A DNA stretch of 12,349 bases from Candidatus Njordarchaeota archaeon (lineage in GTDB: Archaea > Thermoproteota > JANJXX01 > Panguiarchaeales > Panguiarchaeaceae): NCBI GenBank assembly GCA_029855985.1, contig JAGSHR010000112.1:1-12349 (forward strand), in the 5' to 3' direction. This document shows positions 1-12,194 of this stretch, piece after piece. The stretch's first letter is position 1, and each line of letters opens with the position of its first letter. The position numbers and the translations under genes were made by a program. The notes beneath the pieces were generated by a model. It searched no databases and was not told the DNA's origin. It saw only the letters and a program-made list of their open reading frames with translations.

Positions 1-3000
1 ACTATTAGTTCTGCTTCTTGGTCTTTGCTTTCCTCGAGTCTGAATGTTATTTTTAGGTCTGTGTTTGTTAGTATTTTGTTTGGTAGGTCTCCGGGGTTTT
101 GTCCTATGAAGAATAGGATTATCCTGTATTCGAGTGCTTCTCTTACCATTGTTTCGAATATGCTTTCTTGTATTTTTACGTTGGCTAGTGTTTCTAGTTT
201 TTCCTCGTTTGGTATTATGTTGTGTGCTTCCTCGAATACTATTATGAGCGGTCTTTCTCTTGGTCTTGCTAGTCCCTGTTGGTGTAGGTATGCTCCGGCC
301 GCCAGCCATGAGAGTATGAATTGTCTGTGGGCGCTGAATAAACCTGCTGCTTCGAGAATTATTACTCTGCCACTCGTGTATAGGTTTTCTATTGGTATGC
401 CCACTTGTTCGCTTCCAAAGTATTCGTGAAGTGGATAGTTTTGGTTTCCGTATTGCCAAAGTCTGCTTAATATTGCGTTTATTGATTCTATTTCTCCTCT
501 ACCATATAATGATACTTCGCTTCTCCTCCTTTGTCTCTCTTGGATTGCCCCCAATAGATCAACCATTGTGGGGTAGTTTGTGAAGTTCGGATCTCCATGG
601 TTGTCGAATACTCCAAATTGCCTATATAACTGTGTTAGCTCCTCTAGTACTATGCTTCTGCTTCTTGGGAACGGTGCATAAGCATATGCAAACAAGTCTG
701 CTATTAATTCTGCCCATATTTCCGGTGGCACTGTTGCTGGTGGTCTGAGTGGATTAGCTGTTAGAGGCGCGACATCTTTTGCTAGTGTGAATACTAGAAC
801 TCTGTCTTGATCTTCTATTAATGATACTAGTTTTCTCCAAGTGTGTTTCCAATCCAATACTATTACATCATACCCGTTATTTGCTAGCTCGGCTACCAAT
901 TTTATCGATAAGTTTGTTTTTCCGTATTGTGTTTTACCAACTATTAGTGTGTGTGATAACCTTGATACAGGTATTTTTAGCTCGATACCCGTTGCTTCGT
1001 CTTTGTGTATGTTTACTATCCATCCGAGAGAGATTTTGTAATCTTCTGATTTAATGTAATCTTCTGGGGGGTTCATGTTGAATACAATTGGTACATCCTC
1101 TGCAGCTTGCTTTATTCCGGGTAACTCTGTCCTTGGGAGGTGGGTTATCGTTGTTGCTTCGTACGTGTTGATTAGTGTGGCGTACTTGTACTTGTCTACT
1201 CCGAAGCCATCCCATTTGTCCTCCCTTTTTATCTTGGGTAGTATGCCCAGAACACTATATTTTGATAGGAGTTCTTTTATTTTTGGATCTTCTATAACGT
1301 GGAGTTTTATTCCCTCGGGTTCACTTAGAGGCCCCATGAGAGCCGATTCTAGTGTACTTGCTAAGGCGTACATCCAAGCTTGTCTTTTCGATGTTATGAT
1401 GGCTGTATAATGCCATGCTCCCTCTAGTTTTGCTTTCTCAAGTCTCCTTCTGTATGCATCTAGGTAAATTAGTAGTCTATTTAACTCCTCTTTTTTCCAT
1501 TGCCTAGTGTGTGTTACCCCAAATGTGGGTACTAGTCCACCGCTCATCATTTGACTAAAGCTCCTTCCGAGTACCCTGCTGAATATAGTTGATTTTCCTA
1601 GCGCTTGTCCCATCGTGTATGTGTTTCCTGTTGATTCTCCCACAGTTGTCCCTAAAGCGACAGCGTCAATATAACCTATTGATTGCGATTTAATACTACT
1701 ATGGCCCCTCTGCAAGCCATGTGTTTGGGTCCTTCCAATAGTCTGCCCCTCTTGTAATCCCCTTTGAATAGCTTCACCAGTAGTTTCAGCTATCGCTTCT
1801 CCTCTTGTTTCCGCGATTCCTCTTGTCTTTGAGTATGCCCTAGAATATGTCTCTGATTCAGCTATACCCCTAACGTGTGATATCTGTTTCATTTCTGTTT
1901 CCAAGTATGATCTTGTTATACCCTTTGTGTATGTTTGTCCTATTGTCTCTGATTCCGAGATCCCCCTACTATGAGTCTCACCAATCGCAATGGATCTCTG
2001 GTGCTGTTCATTGATAGCTAAACCTTGCATATGAGATTTTGATAATCCCCTAGTTAAACCGTATAATTCAGATCTCATAATTGAATCTTGCATTGATAAA
2101 CCGTGTTGTCTTGATAAACCCTTCGTTATAGCATTTGAAAAACCATACCCAGTTGAAAATTGGTAACTATCTGTAAAACCGATGTTTCTGCTCCTACCCA
2201 TTGCTATACCCGTTTGAAATGACCGCGAAAACATATCTTGGTAACCCATTGACTGAGTAAAATTAAATGATCTACTATAATTATAAACCCTTGAGAAAGA
2301 CTCTAGCCTCGCTAATGCCATTGATTCGCTCTCAACCCTTGGCCTTCCGCCAAAAGGATCATAATATAGACTTCTCGTGTTTATATCCGTATACCCTTGA
2401 GAAATTGTTTTCTGGAAGTACCCCTTACTTGGATCAATCATATCATAATATGTCTGGGATCCAGCCCTCTGATAGTGTGCATTGAAAAGTTTATGCATCA
2501 ATTCTCCATATTGCTTACCAACAAAAGGTATGCTCCCAGCTCCTATCTCAATTATATTTTTAGCGATATCGGCCCCCGTAATAAGTGCTTTTACCCATTC
2601 TGGTAAATCAGAGAATCTGTCGAGGTATCTATATACTGCCCATGCTTCTCCTATGGCTCCGCCGAATCTAAATGTTTCCGCGTCTGATATTGCTTTCATA
2701 TTATAGTCTTTTAGTATTTGTTCGCTATAATGCACGTTTCTTCCGGTAGTGGTTGTTGCTAGGTGGTCGTAGTATGATACACCTTGTTGAATTGTTTTAT
2801 TGAGTCCTACTGTGTGTTGTAGTGATTGTCCTACTGTATATCCTCTCGCAAAACCCATTGTTCTCGTGTATCCCCTTGATATTTGAGTGCCTATTACTTC
2901 GCTTCTAGTGAATTGTTCACCGTAGCCAATTTGCTGTGCGTGTCCCCTTGAGAGCATATATTGATTTGAGTATTGTTTGCTTTGAGAAAACATTTCGCCA

Positions 3001-4319
3001 AATAACTCTTGTCTACCAATAGTATGGCCTCGCGATAAGCCTTGTTGCATTGAGTACGCCTGTGATTCTGTTAAACCATATTGCTCTGAGATTGTCCTCC
3101 CATGGATCTCTCCCATTGTGTTAGTTAATGAATTTGCTAATACCTCTGTTCTCCCCCTAGTATAGTTGTGAATTTCCGCTAATGATTCGGTTAAAGCTTG
3201 GCCTCTAGTATAACTTCTCCCCACGGTCTCACCAATACTCTCTGACCTCACTATTCCCTTCGAGTATTGATCCATTATGGTTTCAGATAACTGCTTAGTT
3301 AAACTGTATTGCTCCGTATGTGTTTTACTACGGGAAATTGTTTGACTGATTTTTTGCATTTTTGATATTGCTTCGCTGTCCGCAATGCTGAATATGTTTG
3401 ACTCTGATTCCGATCTTCCATGCGTAACACTGTGGCTGATACTGTGAGTGTTCACTTTGCTCTCTTGGTGAGAAAATATTTTCTGTAATGCTTTAGCCTC
3501 TTGAATGCTATGGATACTTGATCTAGATAGTGATTCAGCTGAGTGCTCTGACGTGTTTACTGCGATTGTTATTGGTAAGCTTATAAAGAAGCTGAAGCCA
3601 TCTGTCCCCATCATATTGCTCTGTATTGGCGTCATATACTCCTTTGTTATAACATCAAGCGCCTCAAGTATTTCCTCTCTCGACACGGGATACAGGATTA
3701 TGTTTATGTCTCCTTCCATACCAATGGCGCTTCTAATAACCTCCAATTGCTCCCTTGGCATATCGCTTGTCCCAGACCTACTGGGTATCCCTGTTAAAAC
3801 GCTAACATACCGGCAATTTTCCAGATTAAATAAATCTGTGGCTTCATCAACGGTAAGAAAAGTGTATTTGATTTGTCTAAATCTCCCTTCAAACACCCTG
3901 ACCATGTAAATTAATCTTTGCTCTAGCCTCTTAAGTAATTCAGCTTTGCTTTTGCTTCTAGCTATTGCGTAGTAAACCCAGTAAATGACTTCTCCCTCAG
4001 CAGTATTCCTCAAAGCAATCTTTAATGATATAGGGATTCTACGTTCCCATAGTGCAGCGTTAACTTGATCCATTTCTTGTAAAAAGAATTGTCTATCTTT
4101 CTCCATTCTCTGTGATGGGTCCATTGCTAATTGTGCTGTCGGTGTTTGAAGCCTAGGTACCCTCGTTATTCTTATTGGTGCTATACCGTGCCAAAAATAT
4201 TTCTTTCCATTCCTCAGTCTCCAAATGATAAACTTAACTTTCCCGTTTTCAAATGTAATATATTCTGTTTCCTCGATCCTAACATCAAACTGCGATAAAC
4301 CATCTTTATTAAATATCAT
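1..4319 (-). CDS. Giant HerA/VirB4-like P-loop ATPase with two alternating-residue arms (3' end outside window)
   Basis: I translated this frame codon by codon; it stays open for 1439 codons and leaves the window without a stop. Residues 1-260 form a mixed alpha/beta N-terminal domain. Two low-complexity arms (261-515 and 662-908) flank a 146-residue insert. A linker (909-1127) with an HLPR motif at 1060-1063 leads to the motor. The motor has Walker A GKTQYGKT (1128-1135), a strand ending VIVLDWKH, Walker B RPLIIVFEEAHN with FEEAHN at 1362-1367, and a sensor-like strand FFIGQNPGDLPNKIL, the order expected of HerA/VirB4/FtsK-superfamily hexameric motors. The first Walker B acid is E instead of the usual D. 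The ATG lies one base after the upstream stop, with AGGTG before it, so it is the last visible gene of the operon. Such motors pump DNA or protein through membranes; the substrate here is unknown. The family call is firm, the role is inferred. Confidence 0.9.
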   Translation of the reverse strand, partial: MIFNKDGLSQFDVRIEETEYITFENGKVKFIIWRLRNGKKYFWHGIAPIRITRVPRLQTPTAQLAMDPSQRMEKDRQFFLQEMDQVNAALWERRIPISLKIALRNTAEGEVIYWVYYAIARSKSKAELLKRLEQRLIYMVRVFEGRFRQIKYTFLTVDEATDLFNLENCRYVSVLTGIPSRSGTSDMPREQLEVIRSAIGMEGDINIILYPVSREEILEALDVITKEYMTPIQSNMMGTDGFSFFISLPITIAVNTSEHSAESLSRSSIHSIQEAKALQKIFSHQESKVNTHSISHSVTHGRSESESNIFSIADSEAISKMQKISQTISRSKTHTEQYSLTKQLSETIMDQYSKGIVRSESIGETVGRSYTRGQALTESLAEIHNYTRGRTEVLANSLTNTMGEIHGRTISEQYGLTESQAYSMQQGLSRGHTIGRQELFGEMFSQSKQYSNQYMLSRGHAQQIGYGEQFTRSEVIGTQISRGYTRTMGFARGYTVGQSLQHTVGLNKTIQQGVSYYDHLATTTTGRNVHYSEQILKDYNMKAISDAETFRFGGAIGEAWAVYRYLDRFSDLPEWVKALITGADIAKNIIEIGAGSIPFVGKQYGELMHKLFNAHYQRAGSQTYYDMIDPSKGYFQKTISQGYTDINTRSLYYDPFGGRPRVESESMALARLESFSRVYNYSRSFNFTQSMGYQDMFSRSFQTGIAMGRSRNIGFTDSYQFSTGYGFSNAITKGLSRQHGLSMQDSIMRSELYGLTRGLSKSHMQGLAINEQHQRSIAIGETHSRGISESETIGQTYTKGITRSYLETEMKQISHVRGIAESETYSRAYSKTRGIAETRGEAIAETTGEAIQRGLQEGQTIGRTQTHGLQRGHSSIKSQSIGYIDAVALGTTVGESTGNTYTMGQALGKSTIFSRVLGRSFSQMMSGGLVPTFGVTHTRQWKKEELNRLLIYLDAYRRRLEKAKLEGAWHYTAIITSKRQAWMYALASTLESALMGPLSEPEGIKLHVIEDPKIKELLSKYSVLGILPKIKREDKWDGFGVDKYKYATLINTYEATTITHLPRTELPGIKQAAEDVPIVFNMNPPEDYIKSEDYKISLGWIVNIHKDEATGIELKIPVSRLSHTLIVGKTQYGKTNLSIKLVAELANNGYDVIVLDWKHTWRKLVSLIEDQDRVLVFTLAKDVAPLTANPLRPPATVPPEIWAELIADLFAYAYAPFPRSRSIVLEELTQLYRQFGVFDNHGDPNFTNYPTMVDLLGAIQERQRRRSEVSLYGRGEIESINAILSRLWQYGNQNYPLHEYFGSEQVGIPIENLYTSGRVIILEAAGLFSAHRQFILSWLAAGAYLHQQGLARPRERPLIIVFEEAHNIIPNEEKLETLANVKIQESIFETMVREALEYRIILFFIGQNPGDLPNKILTNTDLKITFRLEESKDQEAELI
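1596..2336 (-). repeat. Protein-level alternating small/large residue tract, arm 2 of the giant ATPase
   Basis: Residues 662-908 repeat the two-residue alternation of arm 1. All 30 glycines I located, from 692 to 908, have even residue numbers. Typical words are SRGISESETIG, TRGIAETRGEA, QRGLQEG and TIGRTQTHG. Its length (247 residues) nearly equals that of arm 1 (255), and the two are separated by a non-repetitive 146-residue insert (516-661). That layout would suit two arms packing side by side with the insert at the tip, which is inference. Confidence 0.85.
2775..3539 (-). repeat. Protein-level alternating small/large residue tract, arm 1 of the giant ATPase
   Basis: Residues 261-515 alternate a small residue (G, S, T or A) with a larger or polar one. 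All 23 glycines I located (for example 301, 355, 363, 367, 373, 389, 403, 513) have odd residue numbers. Recurrent words are SRG, TRG, GETVGRS, TIGR and ESES. The codons of similar words differ, so this is not a recent DNA tandem duplication but a tract kept by selection on the protein. A period of two fits beta-strand geometry and not an alpha helix. The fold itself is inferred. Confidence 0.85.
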
Positions 4320-4320
4320 T

Positions 4321-4752
4321 TCAAACACCTAAAAGATATGTAATAATCGCTAATATTAAATAAATACTAATCCAAACAGAAACAAGAATAGTCAAATGCA
4401 AATCATGATAATACTTTGTGAAATTATTAGCCTCAGCTATAATATCGTACCCGCAGTTTCTAATCATATTAGCAATTTCATCCATTTCGTAACCGACTCT
4501 AAACAATTTTTTAACAATATCAATGAGTATCCAAATCAGCATTATTAGAGACCCTATAGCAACGGTTAAAAAATATGATCCAAGTTCATTTAAGAATGTA
4601 ATAAAAACTGCTAAGGATGTTAATATAACAGGTAGTAGAAGTGAAACAAAGAATTTAAAGGAGCTCTTGATGTCCTGAAAAGAGCTTTGTAGCATAGAGT
4701 ATGTGGAGATTAATAATGATAAATTATCGCAATTCTCTTCTTTTTTATTCAA
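4321..4752 (-). CDS. Small three-helix membrane protein, unknown function
   Basis: The 143-residue product has a polar N-terminus and three hydrophobic helices, about residues 34-54, 60-83 and 119-142, with a charged loop (84-118) between the second and third. I do not recognise a family. The start is TTG. It is supported by a strong AGGAGGGAG SD five bases upstream that overlaps the last codons of the preceding gene. The stop lies one base before the ATG of the giant ATPase, so the two are probably translated together. A membrane partner or anchor for that ATPase is a reasonable guess: VirB4/HerA motors usually work with small polytopic membrane subunits. Nothing in the sequence proves the link beyond gene order. 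Confidence 0.85.
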   Translation of the reverse strand: MNKKEENCDNLSLLISTYSMLQSSFQDIKSSFKFFVSLLLPVILTSLAVFITFLNELGSYFLTVAIGSLIMLIWILIDIVKKLFRVGYEMDEIANMIRNCGYDIIAEANNFTKYYHDLHLTILVSVWISIYLILAIITYLLGV

Positions 4753-4754
4753 TT

Positions 4755-7007
4755 TTACTCCCTCCTAGTTAGTTGTTTCGATAATTTTTCTATGTTTATT
4801 TTTAATCCCTGCGTTGCCAGGAAACTGTATTCTACTGCTGTCATAATTGGGAAGAATAGGTATATTATGTACCATAGCGCCGACAAGTACCCCTCTAGTG
4901 TATAACCTGCTCCAGTTGGGGGGCCGAAAAGGGAGCCTCCCAATGTATATGGATTTCTCACTATTGCTAATCCTATCGAGTAAGCTAATACAACTGTTAT
5001 CCAATATATTAGTCTCCTCTTCAGGTTAACTAAAACTCTATCCTTTTCCCCTGGGGACACGAAATATACTATTACCCCAGCTATTATCATCAATGATCCT
5101 AATATGTATACTGATTCCCCGTTTACTCTAGCGAAGAATATAAAGAAGGCTAAAACGGTTATCCAGCTTAATGCCTCAAAGAGTGATTTCAACCCTCTAA
5201 CATTGAGTAGCAATATTATCAATGATGCCAGAAGGAATCTAATATCATATTGAATGGTTAACTCAAACATATTTAGCATGTAATCCAGTAAATAGAATGG
5301 CACTAAAACGGCTATTAAAATGCTTATTAAGATTATTTTTCTGCTCGGAGCGAACGGTAAAGCTGTAATTGTAGATAAAGCTATTAAAAGTATTCCTAGT
5401 AATATTTGATAATAATCAATGCTCTTTGCCTCTAACTCTATATTTGGGTACATTACCACAGATATTGTTTGCTCTATAGAGTCGTATCCTTGCTTCTCGA
5501 CATCTATAACTATGTTGTATCTCCCAGGGAATATTGTTGATAGATTGGCTATATATATTCCGTAACTTATCTCTTTCGCTTTCGTCTTGTACTCCCCAAG
5601 CATCATGTTGACTGTTGCACCGGTTATCGCCTTCCCCACCCTATCTACTATCTCAACTACAACCGATATATTCTCCCCTATCCTTGCTTCTCTCTTGCTT
5701 ACGCTTAAACTTTTTATGAAGATGAGCCTTATTACGCTTAACTTGAAACTGTATTTTAGTGGCTCGTAACCTGTTTTATCTATTTCAATTTGAGCTGTGT
5801 ATGTCCCATTGTTGAAGCCAACTGTGTCTATGAAACCATAGTATTTCCCAGTGTTATTCTCGAAACCATAGAATATTTTGTTATTTACTTTTATTATCAT
5901 GTCAGCTGATTTTATTGGATCCATAAATGGGTTTCTTGCATCTACATCTACTCTAACTATGTCGCCTTCTTGTACAAGTGTAGCGTTAACATTTATTGCC
6001 AATGGTACTATAACATTAATGAGGTTGTGCATTGTGAAAACACTATAAGCAATTTCCCCCAAGTCGTTGCTTGTTAGAATTACTGATAGAGAATACACAG
6101 CTGTTTTCCATGCATTAATAACGTCTATGAACTGCTCTCCGAGGATAGCTATTATGTCTGTTGCGAAAAATGTACTGTAGATATCGCTGTACATTTCCTC
6201 ATAAGCTATTGATTTAAATCCCCCGTCATGGTTCTGACTTATATTCACCATTTCTAGAATCTTGTTCCTCGATAACAAATCTAAGTTATTGAGTAGCTCA
6301 AGTATTTTTACCCCTGCCCAAGTTGAAAATAATGTTGGGTAATCATCGTTGGGCGTGTTTAAGAATCCATACCCGCCATAGTTAACTCCTATCGGTGGCT
6401 CCTCAAGGAGCATATTGATTATAGTTCCTTTATCTATTGATCCAAGTCCGGAGATAATGTTTAGGATTATTAATGCTAACGCTGTATTTATTGTTGTTCC
6501 CCATGTCCCATCGGGATTCTGTAGTGATAAAACATAATTTTTAACTGCATTTACATCTATGTCAGCGAGCCTCCCATACTTCCAAAGTGTGTAGACGGCT
6601 AAGTATGTGTAATATAGTGTACTTGGATCATAATCCTGTTGATACCTTATGTTTCCGAATCCCCCGTCACTATTTTGGGAATCTGCTATAAAGGTTATGG
6701 CTGAATCTAAATCAATTATATCCTCATAACCCAAGTACTTTAAACTCAATAAAGCTAAGCATGTATAGTTTAATCTAGGTGGATAACCATAATCTTTCCT
6801 AAATCCGCCGTCAACTGTTTGCAAGTCCTTGATATAATTCGCTATTTCGGATCTATTTATCGGTGTATCGGCTCCTAGTAAATGTATTTGATTAATTGCT
6901 GTATTAGCTTCTACAGTAAATGTATATTCTATATTATTACTATTATAGTTTATGCCTCCTAAGGATAATAAAATCATGTTTATTAATAGTAAAGCCATTA
7001 TTTTCAT
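4755..7007 (-). CDS. Seven-helix membrane protein with extracytoplasmic prenyltransferase-like repeat domain and two Ig-like domains
   Basis: The 750-residue product begins with a hydrophobic signal segment (1-20). Residues about 50-335 hold five alpha/alpha repeats of the prenyltransferase/squalene-cyclase type, marked by DGGF at 66-69, DGGF at 114-117, DGTWG at 166-170, GGYG at 211-214 and DGGF at 261-264. I see neither the DxDD motif of squalene cyclases nor the zinc-ligand set of prenyltransferase beta subunits, so this domain is probably a binding module and not an enzyme. Two beta-rich Ig-like domains follow (about 337-424 and 428-519). The C-terminus has seven hydrophobic helices, near 533-553, 557-579, 587-603, 610-628, 632-650, 664-684 and 706-730. 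The ATG overlaps the upstream stop (ATGA) and has GGGAG before it. The layout suggests a membrane channel or scaffold with a large outward-facing head; that role is inferred. Confidence 0.88.
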   Translation of the reverse strand: MKIMALLLINMILLSLGGINYNSNNIEYTFTVEANTAINQIHLLGADTPINRSEIANYIKDLQTVDGGFRKDYGYPPRLNYTCLALLSLKYLGYEDIIDLDSAITFIADSQNSDGGFGNIRYQQDYDPSTLYYTYLAVYTLWKYGRLADIDVNAVKNYVLSLQNPDGTWGTTINTALALIILNIISGLGSIDKGTIINMLLEEPPIGVNYGGYGFLNTPNDDYPTLFSTWAGVKILELLNNLDLLSRNKILEMVNISQNHDGGFKSIAYEEMYSDIYSTFFATDIIAILGEQFIDVINAWKTAVYSLSVILTSNDLGEIAYSVFTMHNLINVIVPLAINVNATLVQEGDIVRVDVDARNPFMDPIKSADMIIKVNNKIFYGFENNTGKYYGFIDTVGFNNGTYTAQIEIDKTGYEPLKYSFKLSVIRLIFIKSLSVSKREARIGENISVVVEIVDRVGKAITGATVNMMLGEYKTKAKEISYGIYIANLSTIFPGRYNIVIDVEKQGYDSIEQTISVVMYPNIELEAKSIDYYQILLGILLIALSTITALPFAPSRKIILISILIAVLVPFYLLDYMLNMFELTIQYDIRFLLASLIILLLNVRGLKSLFEALSWITVLAFFIFFARVNGESVYILGSLMIIAGVIVYFVSPGEKDRVLVNLKRRLIYWITVVLAYSIGLAIVRNPYTLGGSLFGPPTGAGYTLEGYLSALWYIIYLFFPIMTAVEYSFLATQGLKINIEKLSKQLTRRE
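4758..4766 (-). promoter_or_regulatory. Strong SD fixing a TTG start
   Basis: On the minus strand this reads AGGAGGGAG, five bases before TTG at 4752. It lies inside the final Arg-Arg-Glu codons and touches the stop of the upstream gene. No in-frame ATG is better placed, so TTG is the preferred start of the three-helix membrane protein. Confidence 0.75.
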
Positions 7008-7813
7008 AATTCTCCCTCGAAAACTTCTTCTTTACGCTTTCTCTTAAATATAACTTGTCTAATCGCCACTAGCAATATTGCAGATACAGATGCTGCGAAT
7101 AGTATCATGCTGTACCGGTATATCACCTTATTTATTTCTCCTATCCCGCTTTCGTCAAAAGCTTTCAAGAGAATGCCGTACAGGGTTGAAACAGCTTTTT
7201 TACCCAGTGTGTTTATAACATAATCTAAAGTTGCTGTGTCGTTGCTATATATAGCGTCATCGCATTGACTCTTATAGTTCTTAGATAGAGAGATAAGACT
7301 CTGCAGGGCCTTATCTATGTCGTCAATTTTCTTCAATTCAAGGGTTGTTTTTGATGAATAAATATAAGAGAAAACATCTCCGCTTACTAACTCGAGGTAA
7401 GTCTCATATGTTTGATAAACGGTTTTATTGCCCGGTTCTACACTATATGGATCCGCTGCATCACCTATATAGTGGGCCATGATGCTATAGTATTTTATAG
7501 CCATATCCCAATCATTCTCTTTGAGATATTTTACGAATTCCTCATAGTTCCAGATAAATACATCGGTTATATTTTCATGATCTATTGGGTTATTCCAGTT
7601 CTTGGGTGCTGAGGCATACTTTTCCATTATATATACTCTATCTGTAAAGTATCCTCTCAGCACATCATCTTTTATTAGAGATGCCGTAGTAACCGCTATT
7701 CCTACTCTCCAAGATGTGCTTTCATTTTCAATATACGATGATGGATTACTTTTAGCCACTATCGGATTTATTAATGTTAGTAATATGATCACCACTAACG
7801 CTTTTTTATTCAT
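7004..7813 (-). CDS. Secreted, C-terminally anchored protein resembling zinc phospholipase C / P1 nuclease, with incomplete metal site
   Basis: The 269-residue product has a signal peptide (about 1-20), a helical domain outside the cell, one membrane helix near 234-256 and a basic cytoplasmic tail (KRKRK). The segment AHYIGDAADPY (113-123) matches the HxxxD zinc-site helix of the phospholipase C/S1-P1 nuclease family, with H114 and D118. W35 and D78-H79 may correspond to other family positions. The later family histidines seem lost: S124 stands where a histidine is expected, and YxxxE (133-137) replaces HxxxE. It may bind lipid or nucleic acid without cleaving, or it may be a distant relative. 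I chose ATG at 7813 because GGTGA lies five bases upstream; an in-frame TTG at 7825 would add four residues. It overlaps the genes on both sides by a few bases. Confidence 0.8.
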   Translation of the reverse strand: MNKKALVVIILLTLINPIVAKSNPSSYIENESTSWRVGIAVTTASLIKDDVLRGYFTDRVYIMEKYASAPKNWNNPIDHENITDVFIWNYEEFVKYLKENDWDMAIKYYSIMAHYIGDAADPYSVEPGNKTVYQTYETYLELVSGDVFSYIYSSKTTLELKKIDDIDKALQSLISLSKNYKSQCDDAIYSNDTATLDYVINTLGKKAVSTLYGILLKAFDESGIGEINKVIYRYSMILFAASVSAILLVAIRQVIFKRKRKEEVFEGEL

Positions 7814-8717
7814 TTTTTTCACCAATAAACTTTTCTATTACCTCTTTATACAAATGCTCGTTGCTATCCTTAAGTACCTTTAATAGTATAGATATAGCTA
7901 TGATATTTTTATCGTTATCGTTCAAGAAGCTTAATTTATTGTCAATGTAATCCAAGCCGTCTTTTACAATATTTATCATTTGTTTAAATGTGTCGTTTGA
8001 TACTTCTGATAAACCGGAAAACCTTATTTTTATCGTGTCTTTGAAGATTTTTGCCCCCTTTTTAATTATTTTCGGTATGTTAATAACCATAAATTCATTG
8101 TGTTTTAGTACAGTTAGGCTGGTAGTATTTCCCCTAATTATATCTGTTAAGGCGTGAACAACAAAATCGTTTTTAATCCCTAACTTCGATTTGATTTTAA
8201 ATAAATCTATCCTCTCAACTTTAAGCAATCTCCGCGTAAGCTTTACTAGTTTATCAGCTAACTTTAACGCGTCTTCATAACTATCTATAGCTCCGAACTC
8301 TGAGCGTAATCCTTCATTGATAAAGGATAAATGATCATTTAGAACCCACCCCTCACTAGGATAGAAAGATGGGGCTTCTGGGATATCAAATATGTAACTA
8401 GTTTTTACTAGCCATCCTCTCTCAGGCAGATCCATGAAAATAGACTCCGATCCTTCATAAGGATTAATAAATATATAGTACTCGAGCACAGTATTGCTAG
8501 TTCCTAAAACTATGTTCCGTTTTAAAGTTTGGAGAACTTCATTAGATGGCGAATCAATTTCAATTATTCTGATTTTGCTAAAACCTTTTTTCAATATATT
8601 GTTTAACTCAGATATTGGGAATTGGCAATCATTATTAACGACAAAAGCCCGTCTGCTCAGAAGGAGATAAACTAAAAATGGAATATTATGAGAACCGAAA
8701 AACTCTATAATATCCAT
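7806..8717 (-). CDS. Unknown 303-residue protein, probably cytoplasmic
   Basis: I do not recognise this protein. It has no signal peptide and no convincing membrane helix. The N-terminal half is mixed alpha/beta: a short hydrophobic stretch near FLVYLLLSRRAFVV, then alternating strands and helices such as KIRIIEID and YYIFINPYEG. The C-terminal half is helical and lysine-rich. No nucleotide-binding or nuclease motif is visible. ATG at 8717 is preferred because GAGG lies six bases upstream. ATG at 8729, which overlaps the previous stop as ATGA, would add four residues but has no clear SD. Tight packing between membrane genes suggests a cytoplasmic accessory of the same machine, an inference from context only. 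Confidence 0.85.
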   Translation of the reverse strand: MDIIEFFGSHNIPFLVYLLLSRRAFVVNNDCQFPISELNNILKKGFSKIRIIEIDSPSNEVLQTLKRNIVLGTSNTVLEYYIFINPYEGSESIFMDLPERGWLVKTSYIFDIPEAPSFYPSEGWVLNDHLSFINEGLRSEFGAIDSYEDALKLADKLVKLTRRLLKVERIDLFKIKSKLGIKNDFVVHALTDIIRGNTTSLTVLKHNEFMVINIPKIIKKGAKIFKDTIKIRFSGLSEVSNDTFKQMINIVKDGLDYIDNKLSFLNDNDKNIIAISILLKVLKDSNEHLYKEVIEKFIGEKNE

Positions 8718-9877: not shown

Positions 9878-10828
9878 CTATATTTCGCTTGTTTTTTCGA
9901 TTTTAATATAACCTAGTCTTTCTAAAATTGCTAAATATAATTTAATCTTATTTTTGTCTAATTTAAGCCTTTTTATTAACCTAAAAACTGGTTCTCCATC
10001 GATTAATTTTCTTGAAAATTCTGATAAAGTTCCAGAATTTACCCTCTTAACTATCCTGATCCTCGTGTTGAGTGTTATTGTCTTGGCTCTCTTCATGTCT
10101 TCTTTGGTTACTGTGTATGCATATACAGTTTTATTTTCGCTAAGTTTTTTCACTAAATTTTCCTTCTTTCGAATTAATCGTGGAGTTTCGAGATCATTGT
10201 TTATTTTCATGATCACTGCGTCTTTGAGTTTCATTTTTTCTAGGATCTCTTCTCTGTTGGATGTTCTTGGACTGTATGTTATGAATTTTGGTTTTATTTC
10301 TAGTCTTTCTGAGAATGAGTGGAATCCTTCGATTACTAGTATTAGGTCTTCCTCGCTTACCTTGTCTATCTTCGTTAGTATGTATATGTAGTTTGTTTTC
10401 ATTTCCTTTATAACGTATTTGGATATTTCTTCTAGGAATTCTAAATCCAAGGTGTTGTCTAGTACCGCTGTAGTATCTATGAAGATTAGAGTAGCATCAG
10501 GATTAATTTCTTTGTACTCCTCTCTGAAAATATCGCTTCTACATACTTCTCCTGGTATGTCAAAGACTGTTAGTTTGGGGTAGAATACAACCTCTATGTT
10601 TTTCGTTGTCTCGAGTTTTTCCAGATCTCCGTTGAATTTGTGTGCTTCGAATACATGTTTTCTAAACGCTGTTTTTCCAGCGCCTTTATCCCCACATAGA
10701 ATAAGTTTTGAGGGGGGGCTGTCAAAATAGTAGATCGGAGCCCTCGCAGGCTCCAAAACCCCAACACGGCCGGGAGAGAGTCCTCTGGACTCGCCTACTT
10801 TAATATCCGACAGCCCCCTCTCCTCCAA
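9878..10828 (-). CDS. Ras-like small GTPase with C-terminal winged-helix-like domain
   Basis: The 316-residue reading contains the full GTPase motif set: G1 GDKGAGKT (46-53), G3 DIPG (90-93), G4 TKID (152-155) and a G5-like YSPRTS (185-190). A strand, KLILCG, directly precedes G1, as in Arf/Rag/MglA-type GTPases. Residues about 280-312 look like a winged helix (FRLIKRLKL through ERLGYIKIEK). It would act as a nucleotide-dependent switch, perhaps controlling assembly of the membrane complex encoded downstream. The start is uncertain. TTG at 10828 gives the longest frame, but its first 40 codons are unusually G+C-rich, overlap a set of inverted repeats and lie very close to the predicted transcription start. 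TTG at 10756 (residue 25) is an alternative that still keeps the whole GTPase domain. Confidence 0.88.
   Translation of the reverse strand: MEERGLSDIKVGESRGLSPGRVGVLEPARAPIYYFDSPPSKLILCGDKGAGKTAFRKHVFEAHKFNGDLEKLETTKNIEVVFYPKLTVFDIPGEVCRSDIFREEYKEINPDATLIFIDTTAVLDNTLDLEFLEEISKYVIKEMKTNYIYILTKIDKVSEEDLILVIEGFHSFSERLEIKPKFITYSPRTSNREEILEKMKLKDAVIMKINNDLETPRLIRKKENLVKKLSENKTVYAYTVTKEDMKRAKTITLNTRIRIVKRVNSGTLSEFSRKLIDGEPVFRLIKRLKLDKNKIKLYLAILERLGYIKIEKTSEI
10714..10818 (-). other. Nested inverted repeats at the 5' end of the GTPase transcript (possible structured leader)
   Basis: A perfect 10-bp inverted repeat (10714-10723 with 10809-10818, GGGGGCTGTC/GACAGCCCCC) encloses a 5-bp stem (10729-10733 with 10795-10799) and two perfect 6-bp hairpins: GGAGCC/GGCTCC (10737-10742 with 10749-10754) and GAGTCC/GGACTC (10778-10783 with 10787-10792). 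The segment is much richer in G+C than its surroundings. In RNA it could fold into a branched structure at the very start of the operon mRNA. It also reads through as codons of the long GTPase frame, so it may be coding, a leader, or both. Confidence 0.5.
10755..10769. repeat. 15-bp direct repeat, copy 1
   Basis: AAAACCCCAACACGG lies between the two small hairpins at the 5' end of the GTPase transcript. It matches 12287-12301 exactly and in the same orientation. Confidence 0.4.
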
Positions 10829-10949: not shown

Positions 10950-12194
10950 TTATATAATGTTTCCATCTATCATCTTGGTGTGTTTGCATGATATTGATGC
11001 GCATTTTTTACACAGTTTAAATGTTTTCTCTGGGGTTTTTATTTTTAGGATCTCTATTTTTTTGTTCGTGAATTTGTTGAATATTGTGTACTTTAAGTGG
11101 TTTGGGAATAGTTTTTCAGCAATTTTGGTTATAGCATAGATTATTCCTAGTCTTGTATCGTTGGATTCTAGTATGTAAAAGATCAGGTGTGCTATGTTTG
11201 GGTAAAAGTATATTGGTTTTGGATCTGTGAAATCTAGGAATTCTTTTTCTCCCTTCGATTCGAATTTAATGTAACCTGTAATATAGTCTGCTGATGTTGG
11301 TATTGTCGGCATGTTCTTTCTGAAGAAGTTTAAGACTACTGTGTAAGTTAATATTATTGTTTTTCCATTGTCCTTGTCTATAACCTTCAAGTACACTTTT
11401 GCTTTCTGCTTCATCCCCTTCTCCTTCTTGACTAACATATCCACAGGTGTAATGTGTCTAGTCGCCTTAAATACATGGATAACGAATTTCTGGTAGTCGC
11501 TCCACCGCCTAATTTTGCCCCTTATGTAGTCGTCAACATGCATTAAAGCCACGTATCCAGATACATCCTTGAATAATCCCTCGCTCTCCTCTATAGCCCT
11601 CAATAATCTACCATGTAACTCGTCTGGCTTGTCGGATAATATCAAAACATGCGCTCCTGACTTCAGGGATTGATAAATATGGTCAAGCAACGTAGAGATC
11701 TTATTCGTCCTCTCATACTCAACATGTATGGTCTTTTCCCCAATTTTATGCACTAGATCCGGTCTCCTCTTACCATAACCATTGCTAACAACTCTATCAC
11801 CATAAGTCGTCTTCGCGAGTATAGTGAAAAAACCATGATTCCTAAAAACCTTTCTACGATAAACCTCATAGGAAACACTAGCAAAACCATGAATCTGAGC
11901 TAAACTATACCCATCCTCCGTGAGGAAATAATAACGCCTCTTAGCGGACCCAATATTAATGGTGAAACTGTCAATATAACCCTTTGAAATAAGTTTCCTA
12001 ACAACATCGAAACCAGATAACTTAGCACTCCTCTGAAGCTGCCTAGCGTACATAGGTTTCCTCGCTAGAACCCTAATAACATTCAACCCCCCAACATCAA
12101 CATCTTGAACAGATATAACAATCACCTCCAAAAGCAATAAAAACCAGAAAAACAAAGAACACAGAATCATGTAAGAGTTTAAGCACAAGAACAC
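10950..12194 (-). CDS. Winged-helix protein with PD-(D/E)XK-like core and C-terminal CCCH cluster (replication-relaxation-like)
   Basis: The 414-residue reading has a winged helix at about 32-97 (wing GSAKRRYYFLTEDG), then RPD at 144-146, HVEYE at 157-161 and K165, a spacing typical of PD-(D/E)XK-like folds and of the bacterial replication-relaxation family. A beta-rich C-terminal half ends with C395, C398, C403 and H405 (CX2CX4CXH), a likely zinc site. It probably binds DNA and may regulate the operon or process the DNA moved by the ATPase. The N-terminus is uncertain: GTG at 12194 adds a hydrophobic stretch (about 9-27) resembling a membrane helix. A perfect SD (12123-12129) lies further in, before the winged helix, but has no ATG, GTG or TTG in frame at proper spacing. 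Confidence 0.82.
   Translation of the reverse strand: MFLCLNSYMILCSLFFWFLLLLEVIVISVQDVDVGGLNVIRVLARKPMYARQLQRSAKLSGFDVVRKLISKGYIDSFTINIGSAKRRYYFLTEDGYSLAQIHGFASVSYEVYRRKVFRNHGFFTILAKTTYGDRVVSNGYGKRRPDLVHKIGEKTIHVEYERTNKISTLLDHIYQSLKSGAHVLILSDKPDELHGRLLRAIEESEGLFKDVSGYVALMHVDDYIRGKIRRWSDYQKFVIHVFKATRHITPVDMLVKKEKGMKQKAKVYLKVIDKDNGKTIILTYTVVLNFFRKNMPTIPTSADYITGYIKFESKGEKEFLDFTDPKPIYFYPNIAHLIFYILESNDTRLGIIYAITKIAEKLFPNHLKYTIFNKFTNKKIEILKIKTPEKTFKLCKKCASISCKHTKMIDGNII
12123..12129 (-). promoter_or_regulatory. Perfect SD inside the annotated N-terminus, without a standard start codon
   Basis: The minus strand reads GGAGGTG. Six bases later, in frame, is ATA at 12116; ATT (12122) and GTT (12119) lie between. 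An in-frame GTG at 12125 is part of the SD itself. Starting at ATA would remove the hydrophobic N-terminal stretch and leave a soluble winged-helix protein. Whether it is used cannot be told from sequence alone. Confidence 0.4.

Follow-up and report, generated by a model that had tools for sequence, protein, structure and literature searches.

The window analysed here, a stretch of 12,349 nucleotides from a Candidatus Njordarchaeota archaeon (contig JAGSHR010000112.1), encodes a VirB4-type ATPase. Its N-terminal domain is interrupted by two long arms of alternating small and bulky residues with a tip insert between them. The arms match in length, their pairing is antiparallel, and the evidence strongly supports a giant antiparallel beta-hairpin. 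We give a probability of about 60 per cent to the full reading, in which six such hairpins would join as a rod or tube and the VirB4-type motor would drive its substrate along or through it. Motors of the VirB4 type are known, as is a neighbouring family under a descriptive name; a paired insertion of such size appears to be new, and in literature searches of open-licence PubMed Central (PMC) papers we recognised none that treats these arms. To our knowledge, paired in-register beta-strands of 150-350 residues would rank among the longest regular beta-structures in any protein. The arms sit on a motor of DNA-transfer type, in the archaeal host and also in bacteria such as Ruminococcus and Anaerostipes.

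Two-residue alternation inside a VirB4-type domain

The full-length form of the window protein in the protein database, P0002, has 1515 residues and begins at the ATG at 4319, the likely start codon, with AGGTG directly upstream. The ATPase domain is RecA-like and belongs to the FtsK/HerA/VirB4 superfamily; it carries a Walker A motif (GKTQYGKT at 1128) and a Walker B-like motif (LIIVFEEA at 1358), and matches Pfam DUF87 at 24.7 bits against a cut-off of 23.2. An earlier note, made from the DNA letters alone, had described a HerA/VirB4-like motor. The VirB4 half of that description stands, since the N-terminal domain is VirB4-type, but HerA proper does not: the HerA NCBIfam equivalogs miss their cut-offs widely (18.6 against 970 bits and 17.7 against 800 bits). 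The CedD equivalog likewise stays below its cut-off (51.7 against 600 bits). VirB4/TrwK of R388 and the archaeal TedB, CedB and CedD have the N-terminal domain fold and the RecA ATPase in common with the window protein, whereas the aligned range of TrwK (15..418) leaves no room for arms; those of the window protein are an insertion inside that domain.

In P0002 numbering, all 23 glycines in residues 261-515 lie at odd positions (301-513) and all 30 in residues 662-908 at even positions (692-908), exactly the counts and parity that the earlier note had given. Arm borders were set by a three-state hidden Markov model (HMM) of the alternation (Table 1), which replaced a hydrophobicity-based tip finder that had left 77 of 120 cases without anchors and gave r = -0.85 in the other 43. 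The resulting arms of 261 and 264 residues are slightly wider than the 255 and 247 first proposed, and the insert keeps its 146 residues. Within these borders glycine, serine, threonine and alanine (G/S/T/A) split by parity 96:4 in arm 1 and 103:7 in arm 2, and neither arm contains a proline. With ranges from the GTG-based numbering, which lie three residues off, the G/S/T/A split is 93:3 and 95:6 (two-sided binomial 4e-24 and 1e-21; glycine alone 2e-7 and 2e-9), charged residues favour the opposite parity (59:2 and 56:0) and the insert has no parity split (26:20). Autocorrelation at lag 2, the check that the note had proposed, gave a divided answer. The G/S/T/A signal is strong in both arms (0.50 and 0.52, reached by 0 of 2000 shuffles per arm), but two values count against the check as it was framed: glycine alone is negative (-0.05 and -0.10), because most glycines sit at least four residues apart, and the insert itself has a weaker G/S/T/A value of 0.27, which 1 of 2000 shuffles equalled.

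Antiparallel pairing and matching arm lengths

Short-armed relatives of the Clostridia type form an in-register antiparallel hairpin. Their alignment, A2, comprises 81 bacterial sequences, 79 from the best 120 listed and two from another search. Mutual information in A2 has its maximum at the antidiagonal i + j = 731 (z 14.8), and mean-field direct coupling analysis gives z 11.0 at the same sum, while antidiagonals farther off than 12 do not exceed 3.5. Restricted to arm against arm, z is 13.4 at 731, compared with maxima over 60 row permutations of 2.6 at that sum and 4.5 anywhere. Beyond short lags, no other antidiagonal or diagonal approaches it.

The archaeal group (P0002, the window protein, to P0005) contains only four sequences, which makes covariation impossible, so charge pairing was tested within single sequences. 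P0005, from a Candidatus Njordarchaeota contig, is 43% identical to the window protein over the ATPase region, and P0003 and P0004 are 96% and 51% identical to the window protein. At an antiparallel sum of 1177 the arms of the window protein make 16 opposite-charge pairs and 1 like-charge pair, close to the sum of 1179 predicted from the tip midpoint. The same offset gives ratios of 18:2 in P0003 and 10:0 in P0004, and P0005 gives 12:3 at offset +6; the summed score was reached by 0 of 4000 shuffles that preserved parity and composition. The suggestion that the arms may pair is borne out by covariation in the short-armed relatives and supported by charge in the window protein.

A pair-preference table trained at 731 in the short-armed proteins recovers the charge-derived registers in all four archaeal-group proteins. 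In 47 of 63 long-armed representatives it finds a register no more than 6 residues from tip symmetry, where chance would give about 13%. Scored with this table, parallel pairing succeeds in 0/4 and 3/63, and a control table from the wrong register 711 in 0/4 and 9/63. Insertions and deletions (indels) were compared among long-armed proteins: 18 of 31 usable pairs, which share members, have one same-sign indel of at least 10 residues per arm, equal in size in 16 (for example 36/36, 32/32, 24/24, 16/16 and 12/12). The paired indels differ in their distance from the tip by a mean of 18 residues, against 102 if the arms were parallel. The equal sizes given here are all multiples of four, where alternation requires only multiples of two.

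Arm length was compared across homologues gathered with queries limited to the ATPase region, so the arms themselves did not select the proteins. These searches covered proteins of 0.55 to 1.75 times the query length and listed the best 120 each (one scored 7998 candidates). Together with five proteins from plasmids, the 247 found in this way, P0002 included, make a set of 252. By the HMM, 218 of them carry exactly two arms, with arm 1 spanning 47-333 and arm 2 39-348 residues, a length correlation of r = 0.994 and a median imbalance of 2.6 per cent; the proteins share ancestry, and these counts are not independent. The equal length noted in the window protein recurs family-wide, and the match also holds within each group, with r 0.951 among long-armed proteins (n = 109) and r 0.786 among short-armed ones (n = 102). 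Among the remaining 34 proteins, 27 have a single run of at least 180 residues, probably with a short tip that the HMM left unresolved, and four have a single shorter run (P0074, P0096, P0201 and one from Pontibacillus); the arms of P0005 are divided in three by the HMM, and arms are absent in P0008 and P0080. Plasmid members outside the 252 have arms of 63/51 (E. coli), 44/43 (Lactococcus), 62/62 (Acinetobacter), 47/40 (Photobacterium) and 23/30 residues (Planktothrix). Also outside the set, a second Ruminococcus albus gene has one 20-residue run and a Rhodococcus plasmid member has none. Applied to 234 segments of open reading frames (ORFs; 250+ codons) from the loci, the HMM flagged 17, each at a locus retrieved for this ATPase family. 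That the arms come as a matching pair, 39 to 348 residues long, is a sharp and testable prediction.

According to the earlier note, the insert may be carried at the tip of a rod. Its 146 residues in the window protein are dispensable for the layout: the tip is 19 residues in the Njordarchaeota relative P0005 and 1 to 59 in two-armed bacterial relatives, with medians of 10 (long-armed) and 14.5 (short-armed). Tips of 141-152 residues, partly conserved, occur in three of the four archaeal-group proteins.

The nearest named family is NF033849 (ser_rich_anae_1, 'serine-rich protein'), whose model has a descriptive name without a function and which is annotated in Ruminococcus albus and Alkaliphilus plasmids, Lachnoclostridium and Anaerostipes. 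It resembles the window protein in the order N-terminal domain, arm, tip, arm, ATPase; in the archaeal group the bulky face of the arms is richer in charged residues, and three of the four proteins have the long tip. P0002 scores 487.3 bits, below the curated cut-off of 650, and P0006 of the bacterial group 1475.2. Matches below the cut-off also occur in 6 of 14 control genomes, so an NF033849 match alone is no proof of arms. The short-armed DUF87 ATPases (Clostridia; Treponema, Lactococcus, E. coli and Exiguobacterium plasmids) have the same layout on a smaller scale, with arms of 39-66 residues in four plasmid members and 50-116 in the Clostridia-type group.

A proposed hexameric assembly and its alternatives

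Oligomeric beta-barrel pores have stems built from one hairpin per subunit with alternating residue size, which the arms resemble; the arms are several times longer than such stems, which terminate in a hydrophobic belt. In R388, VirB4 is described as the central hexamer within a hexamer of dimers, and a membrane protein, VirB3, wraps its N-terminal domain (PMC9259494); archaeal VirB4-like relatives have a function in DNA exchange (PMC11868833, PMC9905601). In the assembly that we favour, arm 1 would run outward, the insert would turn at the tip and arm 2 would lead back, making an antiparallel beta-hairpin whose two strands have about 260 residues each, with almost only small residues on one face and large and charged residues on the other. 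Six hairpins would be rooted around the axis of a VirB4-type hexamer, in its membrane-facing N-terminal domains. With their small faces inward they would most likely join as a common rod or 12-stranded tube. Its length would be about 70 nm with the winding of known beta-barrels, and straight strands would bring it to about 88 nm at most. Single-stranded DNA or an unfolded protein would be the likeliest substrate for the motor to move along this structure or through it. We infer the hexamer, the joining of six hairpins, their membrane-facing direction and transport.

Because the small face extends along the full length of the arms, the interior should be tight, whether as a lumen or a packed core. 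Barrel arithmetic for 12 strands with the usual winding gives a backbone radius of 10.6 Angstrom and a length of 69 nm for 261 residues, and such an interior would admit single-stranded DNA or an extended chain and be too narrow for a duplex. It is conceivable, at somewhat less than even odds, that the six hairpins close as a 12-stranded beta-tube, about 69 nm in length here and as much as about 92 nm in bacteria, whose lumen would be lined almost exclusively by Gly, Ser, Thr and Ala. Growing toward and beyond the membrane, it would be a built-in conduit for single-stranded DNA or unfolded protein, a channel of the motor's own that replaces a pilus or core complex. Given that the outer face is polar along the full length in the long-armed proteins, such a tube would need to pass through a protein channel or stay intracellular. 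If true, it would be a new answer to how DNA or protein passes through the thick envelope of monoderm cells.

Only slightly less probable than this tube is a version in which the hairpins pair but stack small face to small face, as in silk. They would then give a solid rod or ruler that keeps the motor or the tip insert at a fixed distance from some partner, for instance a pilus base or a membrane complex. Tight sheet packing would need small face against small face, the outer face lacks a hydrophobic belt, arm length varies widely among relatives, and the large tips of three archaeal-group proteins are partly conserved, all of which suit a rod. Six hairpins around one axis in a VirB4-type hexamer would nevertheless favour a closed ring, no partner of the tip was found, and the median bacterial tips have 10 and 14.5 residues.

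Several observations weigh against the hairpin assembly as a whole. AlphaFold2 (AF2) gives the arms of the window protein a predicted local distance difference test (pLDDT) score of about 22 with few scattered short strands; of the idea that period two implies beta geometry with one small face, the small face is confirmed by the parity counts but confident beta-structure is missing from this monomer prediction. The arms of the short-armed P0124 reach a pLDDT of about 30, though their strands mirror exactly about 731 (286-302/429-445, 308-324/407-423 and 332-358/373-399); that model was built on the same alignment and lends no independent support to the register. Averaged in bins of 20 residues, the bulky face of archaeal-group and long-armed bacterial arms has a negative hydropathy throughout; the outward face nowhere reaches the hydrophobicity of a classical membrane-crossing barrel, and a hydrophobic belt near the tip, as in oligomeric pores, was found in neither group. 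A control table from register 745 scores 4/4 archaeal-group and 29/63 bacterial proteins, so part of the pair-table signal is general pair preference. Indels are one-sided in 9 of the 31 long-armed pairs and in 28 of 59 among the short-armed. The four paired short-armed indels sit at the tip and differ in size, which leaves the short-armed group without indel support. The preferred diagonal beside the main register has opposite signs in archaeal-group and short-armed proteins, and an attempt to derive a barrel shear number from this second ridge was abandoned for the same difference between archaeal-group and bacterial proteins. Armless relatives exist (P0008, Rhodococcus). Finally, VirB6, VirB3 and pilin families are unmatched among the eight neighbours of the ATPase gene in the window, where the 143-aa and toroid genes fit by place and topology only.

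It is improbable that the protein, rather than being a transport motor, is a helicase of HerA type for repair or defence in which the insertion is decorative. Weak matches of the ATPase domain to HerA models would suit this, as would the neighbours of short-armed relatives, which include dynamin-family GTPases, HNH/EndoVII nucleases and SMI1/KNR4 and, in some cases, WYL regulators. However, the N-terminal domain is VirB4-type, the best equivalog score is far off its cut-off (18.6 against 970 bits), Tad-pilus genes adjoin two long-armed bacterial genes, and several genes of the window operon encode transmembrane (TM)-like segments. We consider it very unlikely that the arms are disordered low-complexity linkers with no fixed structure, despite the low pLDDT in both AF2 models and a composition rich in serine and glycine, since parity is held across 260 proline-free residues, the arms match in length and charge register, and antidiagonal covariation in relatives contradicts it. 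Least credible is that each arm folds alone, as a beta-solenoid or meander, with equal length a relic of duplication: alternation by itself is compatible with this, but the inter-arm antidiagonal at 731 is unrivalled and duplication predicts a parallel correspondence, which was found in 0/4 and 3/63.

The bulky face of the archaeal-group arms is itself graded, with aromatics at 23-29% within 80 residues of the tip and 3-21% farther away, and charged residues at 28-31% within 80 residues of the tip, 42-47% at 140-220 and fewer again at the base. AF2 places helices at 554-565 and 574-593 of the tip insert (pLDDT about 40-54). A PDB sequence search with A2 matched 9ynu_B across the arms; this hit was discarded as a low-complexity alignment to an Ala/Gln stretch.

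Gene surroundings and distribution

The window holds nine genes, every one on the minus strand and some overlapping (Table 1).

Table 1. Features of the window, with residues in P0002 numbering (G001 is a Njordarchaeota genome).
Feature	Position	Strand	Remarks
VirB4-type ATPase gene	3..4328	-	cut by the window edge; 76 residues of the 1515-aa form missing
VirB4-like N-terminal domain, first half	3555..4319	-	residues 1-255
Arm 1	2772..3554	-	residues 256-516; small residue at every second position
Tip insert	2334..2771	-	residues 517-662 (146 residues)
Arm 2	1542..2333	-	residues 663-926; antiparallel with arm 1, i + j about 1177-1179
VirB4-like N-terminal domain, second half	1074..1541	-	residues 927-1082
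RecA-like ATPase domain	3..1073	-	residues 1083-1439; Pfam DUF87; HerA_C below cut-off
143-aa protein, three TM-like segments	4321..4752	-	overlaps ATPase start
750-aa alpha/alpha-toroid protein	4755..7007	-	Prenyltrans 6e-24; ten TM-like windows; homologue in G001
273-aa protein, TM-like segment at both ends	7004..7825	-	homologue adjoins toroid gene in G001
Rag/Gtr1-like GTPase	9878-10828		same gene run as ATPase; match 2.6e-5, above cut-off
414-aa protein	10950-12194		Cys-rich end; no Pfam match

By place and topology, the 143-aa gene occupies what we take to be the slot of virB3 ahead of virB4. The genes farther upstream encode three soluble or singly anchored proteins, the Rag/Gtr-like GTPase and the 414-aa protein. 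Dynamin-family GTPases adjoin some bacterial short-armed genes, and the gene run of the window has a GTPase of the Rag/Gtr1-like kind. The 414-aa protein may be of replication-relaxation type. Its last 130 residues resemble the product of the gene that directly follows the ATPase gene in L001, a Njordarchaeota contig (pairwise E 4e-4, 24%). Three genes ahead of the Alkaliphilus long-armed gene there is a weak match to Replic_Relax that stays below cut-off.

Among 227 genomes of the phylum of G001, NF033849 is matched somewhere in 221, mostly over the ATPase part among the matches listed, and from the N-terminal domain through the ATPase only in G001. Of the 33 loci returned (L009-L041), 32 have an ORF of at least 500 codons and only L009 and L010, both with the gene of G001, show long alternation. 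For the toroid protein, too, G001 alone gives a strong match (1.5e-134; next 1.6e-14), with 12 of the 227 genomes matched at 1e-10; there it adjoins the homologue of the 273-aa protein, on a different contig from the ATPase. Beside these two homologues (L049, 1276-11861) stand proteins of 698 and 1671 aa, whose sequences suggest surface proteins of Ig type, anchored at the C-terminus. Scans of genome contigs gave none with P0001 and one (L001) with A1; scans of viral contigs found three relatives with P0124 and none with P0001, A1 or P0006, and a phage search with P0002 gave no match.

Bacterial surroundings differ with arm length. The long-armed gene of Ruminococcus albus and of Alkaliphilus is followed by an RcpC/CpaB-like protein (below cut-off), a ParA-type ATPase and Tad-pilus genes. 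Short-armed members have dynamin-family GTPases, an HNH/EndoVII nuclease and SMI1/KNR4 as partners, with varying completeness. Treponema, Lactococcus and E. coli plasmids carry two dynamin-family genes, one or two small genes, the short-armed gene and the HNH/EndoVII nuclease, with an SMI1/KNR4 gene next after the nuclease in Treponema and E. coli; WYL regulators lie near some short-armed relatives. Four loci (L006, L051, L052 and L043) share a cassette of dynamin-family gene or genes, armed ATPase and HNH/EndoVII nuclease, with two dynamin genes in three of the four and an annotated SMI1/KNR4 gene, which we take to be SUKH, in two. SUKH proteins are described as frequent immunity partners of nuclease toxins (PMC3482391), so the armed motor of these cassettes might deliver or guard the nuclease.
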